Below are positions 4,101-21,092 of a stretch of DNA of 23,336 nt, one piece after another. The position numbers and the translations under genes were made by a program. Under the pieces are notes generated by a model. It was not told the DNA's origin. It saw nothing but the letters and a program-made list of their open reading frames with translations, and did no database searches. The stretch comes from Candidatus Altarchaeum sp. (GTDB lineage Archaea; Altiarchaeota; Altiarchaeia; Altiarchaeales; Altiarchaeaceae): positions 19,376-42,711 of the forward strand of contig JAGTWP010000001.1 of the NCBI GenBank assembly GCA_018260755.1. Reading direction: 5' to 3'. The stretch's first letter is position 1; every line of letters starts with the position of its first letter.

Positions 4101-4169
4101 AATTACACGCAAGATTACACGCGAATTACACGCAAGATTACACGCGAATTACACGCAAGATTACACGCG
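4101..4169. repeat. Three perfect copies of a 23-bp tandem repeat
   Basis: The unit AATTACACGCAAGATTACACGCG begins at 4101, 4124 and 4147 (written here as two halves built on ATTACACGC). Each unit contains two half-units of 11-12 bp, so the motif ATTACACGC occurs six times in 69 bp. It lies 26 bp past mptE in noncoding DNA and has a higher G+C content than its surroundings. It is too regular and has no spacers, so it is not a CRISPR array. Confidence 0.9.
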
Positions 4170-4220
4170 AGACAATATATAATAGGTGTATTTTCCACCT
4201 CCTTCTTGTATTATTAATTT

Positions 4221-8759: not shown

Positions 8760-8990
8760 ACTGAAAACTACAGGTTTTCAATCTTTAAAAATTTATGAAA
8801 TTTTTAAATTACCTCGTCATATTTGCTCTTGCAGTTATTTTCAAAACCCCGAGTTTTGAAATACTGAAATCTTTTGATTTCAATCTTACAAAATGTTTGG
8901 AACATTTTGTAATACTGAAAATCTGCAAGATTTTCAATCTTACAAAATGCAAAGCATTTTGTAAATCTCCGAGCAACAGCGAGGTGATTT
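8760..8990. repeat. Array of seven short hairpins of three recurring types
   Basis: Successive palindromes occur at about 8760-8785, 8838-8861, 8862-8887, 8888-8910, 8914-8941, 8942-8962 and 8963-8990. Type A reads CTGAAA...TTTCAATCTT with a variable core; type B reads ACAAAATG...CATTTTGT; the last is AAATCTCCGAG...CGAGGTGATTT. Types A and B alternate twice in a row (8862-8910 and 8914-8962), showing duplication of a two-hairpin unit with diverged loops. Stems stay paired although the cores differ, which suggests selection for structure or a shared origin. Both strands have open frames of 65-75 codons here, but their peptides follow the repeat, so they are not called genes. Confidence 0.75.
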
Positions 8991-8999
8991 TTTTCATAA

Positions 9000-10270: not shown

Positions 10271-10297
10271 AAAATATACTCCTTAAATTACTTGAAA

Positions 10298-11329
10298 ATG
10301 TTCTCTATAAAAACAAAAATAATATTCGGAAGGACTGAAAATGAAATTTCTGATTTAAATTTAAAAGGTAATGGTTTATTATGCACAAGAAGGCATAATG
10401 ACCTTAAATTTGATGGTTTAAATTTATACAATTTAAAAATTTCCCCTGAGCCAACTGTTGATGACCTTTATAGATATTTTGATGAAGTGAGGGACTTAAA
10501 TTTTGACTATGTGCTCGCTGTTGGCGGCGGAAGTGTTTTGGATACTGCAAAAATTTTATCTGTGATGGCGAGTGATACAAAAGTTGAGGACTTAATAGGA
10601 AATAATAAAGTTAAGAGCAGAGCAAAAACCATCGTTGCAATTCCCACAACACACGGAAGCGGGAGCGAAGTGACGAAGTATGCGGTTTTAAAATTTCAGA
10701 ATTTAAAGCAAACCGTTGTTTCTGAAAATATTGTTCCCGACTATGCGCTCATTGACGAAAATTTAGCAATGAATTTGCCTGCAGAATTAACCTTGCACAC
10801 TTCAATTGACGCCTTTTGCCATAACATTGAAGCATACTTTTCAAAAATTTCCGAGCCGTTAACCGATTTGAATTGCGAGAACGGAATGAAATTTTTCTTT
10901 GACGGGATTGACGAAGCAATGGAGAATAAAATTTCGGGAAGGAGAAAGATGCTTGTCTGCTCTGTTTTGGGGGGAATTGCCATAACAAATTTAAGGACAA
11001 ATTTAATTCATGCTTTAAGTCATGTGATTGGAGCGGAAAAAAATGTTTCACACGGACTGGCGAATGCGTTATTTTTGCGAGGTTATCTGAAATTTTATAA
11101 GGGGGATGAGAAATTTAAAAATCTGTGCAAAATTTTGAATGTTGACATTATAAAGCGGACTGATGAAATTTATGAAAAATATAATACAAAACGACTAAGT
11201 GATTTTGTCTCTCAAAGTGATATTAAGCATATTGCTGAAAAAACTTATGAAAATAAACGGCTTTTAAACGTAATGAAAAGAGAAATAAGCAAAGAAAATA
11301 TAGTGAAGATTATTGAAGAAGCGATGTAA
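10298..11329 (+). CDS. Iron-containing alcohol dehydrogenase family protein
   Basis: About 343 residues, group III iron-dependent dehydrogenase. From the ATG at 10298: the nucleotide-binding AVGGGSVLDTAK near 74-85, IPTTHGSGSEVTKYAVL near 115-131, and all four metal ligands, Asp171 and His175 in SIDAFCHNIEAY, His242 in HALSHVIG and His252 in VSHGLANA. It should reduce an aldehyde or oxidise an alcohol with NAD(P)H; the substrate is not predictable. It lacks the glycerol-1-phosphate dehydrogenase context and looks closer to lactaldehyde/butanol dehydrogenases. Handling the aldehyde made by the class II aldolase at 1030-1656 is possible but speculative, as the genes are 8.6 kb apart. An in-frame TTG two codons earlier is less likely to be the start. 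It is convergent with ftr. Confidence 0.87.
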   Translation: MFSIKTKIIFGRTENEISDLNLKGNGLLCTRRHNDLKFDGLNLYNLKISPEPTVDDLYRYFDEVRDLNFDYVLAVGGGSVLDTAKILSVMASDTKVEDLIGNNKVKSRAKTIVAIPTTHGSGSEVTKYAVLKFQNLKQTVVSENIVPDYALIDENLAMNLPAELTLHTSIDAFCHNIEAYFSKISEPLTDLNCENGMKFFFDGIDEAMENKISGRRKMLVCSVLGGIAITNLRTNLIHALSHVIGAEKNVSHGLANALFLRGYLKFYKGDEKFKNLCKILNVDIIKRTDEIYEKYNTKRLSDFVSQSDIKHIAEKTYENKRLLNVMKREISKENIVKIIEEAM

Positions 11330-12560: not shown

Positions 12561-12584
12561 ATTAAATTTTTTGTAATAAATATA

Positions 12585-12656
12585 AAATACAACAATAAAT
12601 TCAAAAAAAGTTAAATAAAAAAATACAACAATAAATTCAAAAAAAGTTAAATAAAG
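12585..12656. repeat. 36-bp tandem repeat, two copies
   Basis: Two essentially perfect copies (12585-12620, 12621-12656) beginning AAATACAACAATAAATTC and ending AAAGTTAAATAAA. Open frames crossing it on the minus strand simply repeat a hydrophobic peptide and have no support as genes. Confidence 0.85.
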
Positions 12657-12680
12657 GTAACTATTCAGATGGTAGAAAAA

Positions 12681-12713
12681 TTTCACCTCGCTGTTGCTTG
12701 AAGATTTTCAAAC
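12681..12713 (-). repeat. Dispersed hairpin module, CCGAGCAACAGCGAGG family
   Basis: On the minus strand this reads AAAATCTTCAAGCAACAGCG followed by AGGTGAAA. It shares AGCAACAGCGAGGTGA exactly with the last hairpin at 8963-8990. It lies in the noncoding region upstream of glyA. Confidence 0.7.
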
Positions 12714-12863
12714 AAGTTTTAAAAGATTAAAAATAATGGTGATTTGAAATTATTCCGTGAAGTTATCTATTATCTGAAAAGCAGTTAAATGAATCTTAAA
12801 ATTTAGCCAAAAAAATGAAATTTATAAGAACTAATTTAAAATAATATTCAAAAACAAAAGAAA

Positions 12864-16644: not shown

Positions 16645-18123
16645 TTAATTTCCTAATTTTCTATCTAAAATTTCCCTTACTTTTTTATTATCTGCCTTTC
16701 CTTTTGTGTTTCTCATAATTTGCCCAACCAAAAAATTTAAAGATGACTTATTTCCGTTTTTATAATCATCAACTGCCTTTTGATTTTTTGCGAGCACATC
16801 ATTAATAATATTTTTTAACACATCATCATTACTTTCAGTCATTAAATTTTCCTTTTCAACAATGTCGCTTGGTAATTCTCCACTGTCAATAACCATTTCT
16901 AAAATTTTCTTTCCCGTATTTTCAGTAATCTGATTATCCAACAATAACACAAACAAATCCGCCAAAATTTTTTTGTTTAGCTTATTTTTTTCATCATTCC
17001 ACTCTATATCTCTGTAATTAAGCTGCCTGAGCACTTCCCTGCATATCCATGATGATGAAATTTCAGCCATTTTAAAAACGGAGTTTTTGAAATCTCCGAA
17101 GGATAGTGAAGCGATAAATTTGTCATGCGAGACGATTTCTTCAAAAATGTCTGCAAGTTCCTTATTTCGGACAAGAATATCTGCATAATCATCTCTTATA
17201 CTGTATTTGGAAATCAGTCGCTTCTTTCTGCTCTGAGGTGTTTCGGGAAGGACTATTTTTTCTGAAATTTCCTTCAGATAAATCGGCGGAATATCAGGGT
17301 CGGGAAGATATCGGTAATCATCTGCTGTCTCTTTTGTTCTCAACGGAACTGTGAGCATCTGGTTTTCATCATAACCGCGCGTTTCCATCTTTGCTTCGCT
17401 GCCGACACTTTTTAAATTTTTCTGTCTTAAAATTTCATATTTCAGGGCTTTGACCATACCTTTTTGCGAATTTACATTCTTAATTTCTACCCTTGCACCG
17501 CCTTCTATTGAGACATTGACATCTGCACGCATTACACCCCCCACATCCACGGTTCTGTTTGTATATTTTACTAAATTTATCAGTTCCTTTAAAAAATTTC
17601 TCGCTTCTTCGGGAGAATGCATATCTGGAGCACTAACGATTTCCGCAAGAACTGTTCCAGACCTGCTGTAATCAACTCTTCTGTAATTTAAATCATATTT
17701 TCCAGGATCCTCTTCAATATGAACTTCCCAAATCCCAACATTATTTAAATTTCCATCAACACCTATCGGCTCCGATGTTCTCTGGTAACCGCTTGGAAGG
17801 TCCGGATAATTATAGTGTTTTCTCTTTACAAATATTTTTTCATTTATTTTGCAGTTCAGGAGTTTTGCAAGCATAACAACGGACTTTAATCCTTCTGAAT
17901 TGATCGGATACGGTTTAATCCCAGGCATTCCCGTGCAAACCGGACAGATATTTACATTTGGTTCTGAAATTTCATAGTAATTTGTCGGACAATCACAGAA
18001 TAATTTTTCTTTTGTTTTTATCGGAATGTGAATTTCAAGCCCGATTTTTACATCATATATTTTACCTTCTTCTTTCTTTGTTCCTGTCTCTATATTTCCT
18101 GATGGAGATAATGTCTGATTCAT
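16645..18123 (-). CDS. gatB: Aspartyl/glutamyl-tRNA amidotransferase subunit B
   Basis: A 492-residue subunit of the GatCAB amidotransferase that phosphorylates and amidates Glu-tRNA(Gln) or Asp-tRNA(Asn). The cradle domain shows DVKIGLEIHIPIKTKEKLFC at 24-43, a zinc site built from CDC (43-45) and CPVC (60-63), DLPSGYQ at 108-114, VDYSRSGTVLAEIVS at 150-164, GVMRADVNVSI at 196-206 and DDYRYLPDPDIPP at 268-280. The C-terminal YqeY-like domain ends in NFLVGQIMRNTKGKADNKKVRE. Residues about 335-351 form an extra segment between KELADIFEEIV and the conserved Trp359; it coincides with a repeat module and looks inserted. The gene follows rpl10 on the same strand; gatA and gatC are not in the window. 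Confidence 0.96.
   Translation of the reverse strand: MNQTLSPSGNIETGTKKEEGKIYDVKIGLEIHIPIKTKEKLFCDCPTNYYEISEPNVNICPVCTGMPGIKPYPINSEGLKSVVMLAKLLNCKINEKIFVKRKHYNYPDLPSGYQRTSEPIGVDGNLNNVGIWEVHIEEDPGKYDLNYRRVDYSRSGTVLAEIVSAPDMHSPEEARNFLKELINLVKYTNRTVDVGGVMRADVNVSIEGGARVEIKNVNSQKGMVKALKYEILRQKNLKSVGSEAKMETRGYDENQMLTVPLRTKETADDYRYLPDPDIPPIYLKEISEKIVLPETPQSRKKRLISKYSIRDDYADILVRNKELADIFEEIVSHDKFIASLSFGDFKNSVFKMAEISSSWICREVLRQLNYRDIEWNDEKNKLNKKILADLFVLLLDNQITENTGKKILEMVIDSGELPSDIVEKENLMTESNDDVLKNIINDVLAKNQKAVDDYKNGNKSSLNFLVGQIMRNTKGKADNKKVREILDRKLGN
17071..17121 (-). repeat. Two-hairpin repeat module inserted in frame in gatB
   Basis: On the plus strand a perfect hairpin AAAAAC-GGA-GTTTTT (17074-17088) is followed by AAATCTCCGAAGGATAGTGA and then AGCGATAAATTT (17090-17121). 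The second part matches the dispersed family at 8963-8990, 12681-12713 and 18189-18217. The 51 bp encode residues 335-351 of GatB (KFIASLSFGDFKNSVFK), a stretch that bacterial GatB proteins lack, as far as remembered. Confidence 0.6.
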
Positions 18124-18184
18124 TTTTCAAAAAGAATAAAATTTCAAACCTTCCTTTCGGTGCAATTTTCAAATTCGTAGAGGA

Positions 18185-18230
18185 TTTAAAAATCTCCGAA
18201 CGAAGTGAGGTGACTTTTCCTGTGGAAAAG
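18185..18230. repeat. Hairpin repeat module between rpl10 and gatB
   Basis: AAAAATCTCCGAACGAAGTG, then AGGTGACTTTT (18189-18218), belongs to the CTCCGA...GAGGTGA family. It is directly followed by a perfect hairpin CTTTTCC-TGT-GGAAAAG at 18214-18230. It lies in the 139-bp gap between the shortened rpl10 and gatB. On the transcribed strand the module ends in GGAGATTTTT, so it could also act as a terminator or processing site. Confidence 0.65.
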
Positions 18231-19943: not shown

Positions 19944-21092
19944 ATGAAGAAAGAAAAATCTGTGCTGCGTGTATCAATATCTCCACTACTTGTATTAATA
20001 CTTACAATTGTAATTGCAATAAGCGGATGTATTGAAAATACAAATATAAATAATTCTGCCCATTCAAATAGCCAACATTCAAATAGTCATCTGAATATTA
20101 CAGATGATTCAGACAACACCTCGCTGGGTAATTCTTCTGACAATACGACAGACAATACTACTGATTATAAGACAGACCGTTCTTCTGACAATACGACAGA
20201 TAATGCTACGGACCATAAGACAGACCGTAAGAATAATGTGAATATCACTATAAAAAAGAGCACGGATAATGCCACAACGGGAGAGGATGAGTACAATGTT
20301 ATTGTTGTTATTACCCTAAGCAATGTTTCATTGTTAAAAATTTCATTGTTAAAAATTTCAGTCAAAAATATTGAAACGGACAATAAAATTTACGGATGGA
20401 AGGAACTAAATAAATCCATTAATCAAACGGATAACCAAAGCACGCATTCGGGAAATTTACCTGCTGGAAAATATGTTCAAATCAGAATTATGTTCAATGA
20501 ATCCGTATTTGAAATTCCCATTGATTTTTCACTTAATAAAACAGATAAAATTTATATGAATTTAGATATGAGCACAGAGACAAACAAAGCGAATAATACA
20601 ACAAATAGTACGATAGTAATAAATGCCACGGTTTATAAAAATTTAAATTTAACGATGAGTAAAATTTTTAGGTTTGAAATAAGAACAAACAGCGGGAGAA
20701 ACAAAACGGAAATTTCAGATTGTAAGGCAAAATGTGAAACAATGTGCAATAATAGTGCAGAAGAAAAATGCAATGTGAATAATGCCGATATTAATGAAAA
20801 ATGTGCGAGCGGATGCGAGCAAAATTTATATTCGGCCGACTCAACTCAAAAATGCCAAAAGGAAATAAACGAAAGATGCAAAATAAAATGTGAATCGGGA
20901 GACATAGATACAGAGAATCAGACACAATGCAATTTTCAGTGTAAAATGAATTCCTTGCAACCGTGTATGGAAAAATATGTCGCAGATGAACGAAATATTT
21001 GTATATCTCAATGCAGAGCAAATGCATCTTCACAGTGTTCAAATCCAAATTTTGAATGCTATAACAAATGTTTAAATGAATGCAAAGAATGA
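19944..21092 (+). CDS. Putative surface lipoprotein with N-glycosylation-rich linker and cysteine-rich C-terminal domain
   Basis: A 382-residue protein not assignable to a named protein. It starts with a lysine-rich N-terminus and hydrophobic segment ending in a lipobox AISGC (Cys29), so it is probably anchored by lipid on the outer face. Residues 30-100 are low-complexity Asn/Ser/Thr/Asp and include two tandem 16-residue repeats (64-79, 80-95). The middle part (about 100-255) looks beta-rich; its NLPAGKYVQIRI stretch resembles the archaeal lipoprotein domain DUF4382, a tentative match. About two dozen N-x-S/T sequons are present. The last ~120 residues hold 18 cysteines, many as CxxxC pairs (CKAKC, CASGC, CKIKC, CNFQC, CISQC, CYNKC), suggesting a disulfide-knotted or metal-binding domain. 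Two tiny membrane-protein genes follow. Confidence 0.8.
   Translation: MKKEKSVLRVSISPLLVLILTIVIAISGCIENTNINNSAHSNSQHSNSHLNITDDSDNTSLGNSSDNTTDNTTDYKTDRSSDNTTDNATDHKTDRKNNVNITIKKSTDNATTGEDEYNVIVVITLSNVSLLKISLLKISVKNIETDNKIYGWKELNKSINQTDNQSTHSGNLPAGKYVQIRIMFNESVFEIPIDFSLNKTDKIYMNLDMSTETNKANNTTNSTIVINATVYKNLNLTMSKIFRFEIRTNSGRNKTEISDCKAKCETMCNNSAEEKCNVNNADINEKCASGCEQNLYSADSTQKCQKEINERCKIKCESGDIDTENQTQCNFQCKMNSLQPCMEKYVADERNICISQCRANASSQCSNPNFECYNKCLNECKE
20133..20228 (+). repeat. 48-bp in-frame tandem repeat in the lipoprotein gene
   Basis: Two copies encode SSDNTTDNTTDYKTDR and SSDNTTDNATDHKTDR. A smaller duplication nearby (20331-20360) repeats the SLLKI peptide. Such repeats suggest a length-variable, glycosylated surface linker. 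Confidence 0.85.

Follow-up and report, generated by a model that had tools for sequence, protein, structure and literature searches.

A dispersed two-hairpin repeat of Altiarchaeum genomes has very probably been inserted in frame into gatB

Introduction
The gatB gene lies in the 23,336-nucleotide stretch of Altiarchaeum DNA analysed here (hereafter the window) and carries a short hairpin sequence within its reading frame, which raises the question of whether a mobile palindromic repeat has entered this gene and is translated as part of the protein. Elements that behave in a comparable way have been described in several lineages. Rickettsia and Wolbachia palindromic elements occur both as intergenic copies and as in-frame copies in unrelated conserved proteins, where they persist as peptide loops (PMC2229807, PMC10969869, PMC3767692), the enterobacterial ERIC and RU MITEs are small non-autonomous repeats whose frames may fuse to host genes (PMC2229807), and palindromic repeats fused in frame into protein genes are on record for Methanocaldococcus jannaschii, as far as the accounts of Suyama et al. 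2005 in PMC2229807 and PMC2996958 go. We find that the segment in gatB is very probably a 45-bp copy of a dispersed two-hairpin repeat that was inserted after the split from three sequenced congeners and would be translated and tolerated as a loop.

Materials and methods
The window belongs to contig C71 of a draft assembly (1.32 Mb, 78 contigs, 85% complete; G000), whose nearest named relatives are Candidatus Altarchaeum HURL_140, Ca. Altarchaeum CG2_30_32_3053, and Altiarchaeales archaeon A3. Three genomes of the same genus (G001, G002, and G003) were compared with it, G003 being the closest relative. Copies of the repeat were located by searches, and only the stretches around matches were taken. 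For in-frame copies, units were scanned against long open frames, orthologues were then aligned, and proteins were named by Pfam; units at protein ends (L227, L283, L118, L254, and L294) were left out of the count of internal insertions. Since the gatB copy was part of the unit model, it was tested separately by a profile lacking it.

Results

Insertion in gatB
The gene is intact and full-length (Pfam GatB_N 2.8e-80, GatB_Yqey 5.8e-35; TIGR00133 1.2e-136). In the DNA alignment, gatB of G003 reads GACAAATTT-ATGGCTGAAATTTC, whereas the gene analysed here has 45 bp between GACAAATTT and ATGGCTGAAATTTC, flanked on either side by the same bases as in G003. The gatB genes of G001 and G002 show the same 45-column gap at the same place. 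Because AT opens the insert in the gene direction and AT also follows it, the edges may slide by 2 bp (to the left on the plus strand). The 15 inserted residues (337-351, IASLSFGDFKNSVFK) form a block that is unique to this genome in the protein alignment and missing from all 29 archaeal homologues, and phmmer alignments with solved bacterial GatB structures have a gap in the same stretch. A first-pass annotation of the DNA had described the insert as an AAAAAC-GGA-GTTTTT hairpin plus a AAATCTCCGA...GCGAT module, both of which are present in the sequence, and had placed it at 17071-17121 (51 bp, 17 residues, 335-351). Its start is right, while its end lies 6 bp too far by the closest-relative alignment, and the residues are corrected as given above. 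The excess that it had noted, 30 residues here against about 14 in bacterial GatB, agrees with the lack of the block in the archaeal homologues and the bacterial structures; the homologue alignment that it had proposed revealed a precise insertion, and no close relative was seen to have these residues while lacking the repeat family.

In an AlphaFold2 model of GatB (17 sequences, mean pLDDT 83), the insert falls in a low-confidence stretch, one of the weakest in the folded part, between helices predicted at residues 320-331 and 344-369. A GatE homologue is also encoded in the genome (G000:C7:1435-1977), so that the substrate of GatCAB here may be Asp-tRNA(Asn) and not Glu-tRNA(Gln).

Table 1. 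Positions of gatB, repeat units, filled and empty sites, and unit-carrying genes (window coordinates unless a locus is named)
Feature	Genome	Position	Strand	Frame type of unit	Remarks
gatB, Asp-tRNA(Asn)/Glu-tRNA(Gln) amidotransferase subunit B, 492 aa	G000	16645..18123	-	GDF	Residues 337-351 insert-derived
45-bp inserted repeat unit	G000	17071..17115	+ (unit orientation; gatB reads antisense)	GDF	Exact gap against G003; family match
Hairpin 1 of gatB unit, ATTTTAAAAAC-GGA-GTTTTTGAAAT	G000	17069..17093	+		Stem 11, one T-G pair; from sequence
Degraded hairpin 2 of gatB unit, AAATCTCCGAAGGATAGTGAAGCGAT	G000	17090..17115	+		Alignment A2
Second family unit, between rpl10 and gatB	G000	18168..18216	+		1.1 kb from insert; model match G000:C71:37543-37591
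Third family unit, intergenic	G000	8941..8990	+		Model match G000:C71:28316-28365
Degenerate further unit, intergenic	G000	12675..12729	-		Approximate ends; inverted repeat I3 with 8958-8995; pattern match
Empty site in Fe-alcohol dehydrogenase gene (10292-11329)	G000	11180..11181	+		Filled in G001
Fe-alcohol dehydrogenase	G001			GDF	42-bp in-frame unit; filled/empty alignment
AMP phosphorylase	G000			GDF	In-frame unit, 42 bp; not in G003
ManC	G000			RRFSK	In-frame unit, 48-54 bp by alignment; not in G003
Hydantoinase-like protein	G000			RRFSK	In-frame unit; gap against 3c0b
CBS-domain protein	G000			SEI/SDI	In-frame unit
572-residue protein of no known family	G000				Carries one unit
G1P dehydrogenase (G1PDH)	G003			RRFSK	In-frame unit, 45-48 bp; missing from the other genomes
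Chorismate-dehydratase-like protein	G003	L303:3458-4411		RRFSK	Two tandem in-frame units
Glycogen debranching enzyme (GDE)	G001	L356:47-2176		SEI/SDI	Three or four in-frame units; none in orthologues of three congeners
Longer composite repeat		L077, L078, L079, L081, L082 (e.g., L079:172-438)			

The repeat family
A blastn search of the genome with the gatB stretch found nine further places, the best with 29 of 31 bases identical (E 4.5e-7). Read from the copies, the unit consists of two hairpins, a palindrome (e.g., ATTTTCAAAAC-CCAGA-GTTTTGAAAAT) followed by CTCCGAGC-AACA-GCGAGGTGAT. The palindrome of hairpin 1 recurs in other copies with altered stem bases. Hairpin 2, which has the family form AAATMTCCGA-NNNNNNNN-GAGGTKAT with about 8 bases between, shows covariation at three pairs (C-G 18 and A-U 10; G-C 16 and A-U 12; C-G 28 and U-A 2), and its two internal G/A oppositions do not vary among the copies aligned. 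The unit consensus folds better than shuffled sequences, whether as RNA or as DNA (z -2 to -4); the folding of the gatB copy alone is not clearly better than that of shuffles, the structure being visible only in the family. No Rfam family matches the window. Head-to-tail arrays have a period of 47 bp in 27 of 60 spacings, which fixes the unit length independently of gatB, and units measure 42-48 bp.

The unit model finds 75 copies in this genome and at least 149, at least 111, and at least 149 in the congeners. A stricter pattern gives 37, 97, 45, and 158 matches in the four Altiarchaeum genomes and a single match in 14 other archaeal genomes, so that the repeat appears, as far as tested, to be restricted to the genus. 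A profile from which the gatB and ManC copies had been left out still detected gatB at E 1e-4 in a 1.3-Mb search, and genes with in-frame units were found at E 1e-4 to 2e-11. The nearest other unit, from G003, shares 41 of 47 bases with the gatB copy in an ungapped match that covers the whole insert. Judged by these comparisons, the match of the gatB insert to the family is well beyond chance. Translated, the G003 unit gives ITSLSFGDFKNSVFK, so that six base differences amount to one residue change (random probability 0.002-0.012); this is a hint rather than a test, because the unit compared was selected for being the best match and belongs to a different species.

In-frame copies in other proteins
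The same event has taken place in other genes and in other species of the genus (Table 1). In-frame copies with orthologues that lack them were found in AMP phosphorylase, ManC, G1PDH, Fe-alcohol dehydrogenase, and GDE, and one of the GDE units (45 bp) has clean empty sites in G002 and G003. At the three cleanest sites, AT, ATAA, and AT are repeated at the edges, a weak target-site signature drawn from these sites only that could reflect a 2-bp duplication or a target preference. Open reading frames in L122, L087, L249, L231, L246, and L292 were set aside as unit carriers, as they look like non-coding arrays or come without a comparison. The first-pass annotation had suggested searching for the translated module, and it does recur inside other proteins of this genome and its congeners; its proposal that a mobile palindrome had been inserted into gatB is well supported by the precise gap against relatives, the dispersed family, and the same event elsewhere.

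Unit peptides use three frames of the same strand, and a given frame of the unit is open in no more than some one-quarter to one-half of the copies. Internal copies in identified proteins all lie antisense to the unit. The mean number of open frames, out of three, is 1.46 in antisense versus 0.98 in sense; antisense frames are thus open more often, and about 60% of copies would be expected in antisense. Under this ratio, the probability that ten genes are all antisense is near 0.006 if they are independent. The in-gene antisense bias is graded as suggestive because the sample was picked by open frame.

Discussion

How the unit may have entered gatB
By these comparisons, a copy very probably entered gatB in this lineage after its divergence from the three sequenced congeners. 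Since the length was a multiple of three and the entered frame had no stops, gatB stayed open, and translation of the copy would give a loop of 15 residues, placed between two helices and tolerated by the protein. The repeat would most likely be a non-autonomous hairpin element with AT-rich insertion sites, which moves with the help of an enzyme provided in trans or through hairpin-primed copying. Selection removes gene-breaking copies, so most survivors are intergenic and the few copies within genes keep the frame. Among the well-flanked copies in this genome, 38 are found between ORFs; another 11 overlap ORFs of at least 110 codons, and only some of these overlaps are convincing. The rpl10-gatB spacer, which holds a second unit here, is shorter and has no unit in two congeners (L122 and L123), compatible with ongoing movement.

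A Y1 (REP-type) transposase was considered as the mobiliser and rejected: PF01797 was not found in the four Altiarchaeum genomes, which are incomplete (65-87%), while five control genomes were positive, and the search of the four genomes for a mobilising enzyme of this kind yielded no candidate. A bolder reading is that an unusually small, still active palindrome with a novel mobilising route keeps adding loops to core enzymes (up to four per protein), and that the strand bias reflects an RNA-level activity of the sense hairpin, which is barred from coding transcripts; we regard this extension as doubtful.

Other explanations of the insert
It is practically inconceivable that the extra residues represent an old GatB loop lost elsewhere whose likeness to the repeat arose by chance. 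Indels do occur in the inter-helix stretch (G001 has one extra codon nearby), but the repeat match spans the entire insert, no homologue has the block, and the idea is already contradicted. We consider it extremely unlikely that a repeat copy was misjoined into gatB during assembly. Although contigs of these assemblies often end near repeats, the insert is located within a 64.9-kb contig and preserves the reading frame, its sequence has diverged from every other copy seen, and the same pattern is found in independent assemblies of other species.

The stretch could also be left untranslated, skipped by the ribosome or lost from the RNA, so that a normal GatB protein is made. The Altiarchaeum unit is a palindrome of a small size similar to that of the bypassing elements of Magnusiomyces. 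In the mitochondria of these yeasts, palindromic inserts remain untranslated because ribosomes skip them as mobile bypassing elements (PMC6649704), a precedent for such skipping. However, if an insert were bypassed or spliced out, nothing would require its length to be divisible by three or its frame to lack stops, whereas the clean inserts (45, 42, and 45 bp) show both features; other units within genes keep the frame open as well, even though any frame of the unit is open in no more than about half of the copies; and most of the base changes that separate the gatB copy from the unit nearest to it are silent. We consider skipping or removal from the RNA very unlikely. Somewhat less improbable, but still unlikely, is that the 15-residue block has become useful and that selection for the peptide maintains it in gatB. 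The low residue change relative to the nearest unit would fit such selection, but that unit belongs to another species and need not be the parent, one insert provides too little data, and the other copies are themselves structurally constrained. Moreover, the loop that holds the block is modelled with low confidence, and unrelated proteins contain similar peptides, read in three frames. A peptide that is made and simply tolerated seems to us the best account of the gatB insert.

Relation to known elements
Like the Rickettsia palindromic elements (RPE) and their Wolbachia counterparts, the Altiarchaeum repeat is a dispersed, multi-copy palindrome found between genes and in frame in unrelated conserved proteins, having entered gatB, AMP phosphorylase, ManC, G1PDH, Fe-alcohol dehydrogenase, and GDE. 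The comparison with Rickettsia made in the first-pass annotation holds for the way of working, but M. jannaschii provides an archaeal precedent in the accounts cited above (PMC2229807, PMC2996958). RPE comprise ten families of about 105-150 bp, a length that the two-hairpin unit of 42-48 bp does not match. RPE sites are common to Rickettsia orthologues (in one R. japonica study), whereas filled and empty sites in Altiarchaeum differ between congeneric species. As far as those same accounts describe them, the M. jannaschii elements are likewise archaeal palindromes in frame within protein genes, but they belong to a different lineage, and the Altiarchaeum unit is nearly confined to its genus among the archaeal genomes searched.

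REP sequences with their RAYT transposases (PMC3733652) are similar in being short, numerous, and structured, some REPs lying inside genes. The Altiarchaeum repeat differs from them in the absence of a detectable Y1 transposase from the four genomes, and no conserved tetranucleotide of the GTAG or CGTC type was found at the unit end in alignments A1 and A2. ERIC and RU MITEs are 103-168 bp long, and most have terminal inverted repeats and target duplications; the Altiarchaeum unit has only AT-rich short repeats at its edges and, being made of two side-by-side hairpins, lacks terminal inverted repeats that would span it as a whole. We found no report of Altiarchaeum coding palindromes in the literature searched, with most subscription journals outside the search. 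The repeat is thus a new family of RPE-type coding palindromes, with a known way of working and not the first archaeal case, which is smaller than RPE, restricted to its genus as far as tested, and distinguished by unusually clean filled and empty sites. It offers a clean natural series in which insertions of one mobile palindrome into protein genes can be compared as filled and empty sites in close archaeal species. The series makes it possible to ask how conserved enzymes acquire new peptide segments, what sites and frames they tolerate, and by what means so small an element moves.

Other repeats and annotation
Loops of this kind in Altiarchaeum proteins should be annotated as repeat-derived, with attention to contig ends, which often lie near repeats. 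Together with another hairpin (AAAACTC...GAGTTTT; Table 1), the unit also forms part of a longer repeat, likewise dispersed and about 130-220 bp in length, and many contigs finish near such composite repeats. Long head-to-tail arrays of units (L122:4793-5168, with similar ones in L231 and L246) have more than one frame open over 90-128 codons and could mislead gene callers. The window also contains short tandem arrays at 4101-4170 (23 bp, three copies) and 12584-12655 (36 bp, two identical copies), and a 48-bp repeat at 20132-20227 lies inside an Asn/Asp/Thr-rich ORF (19944-21092).
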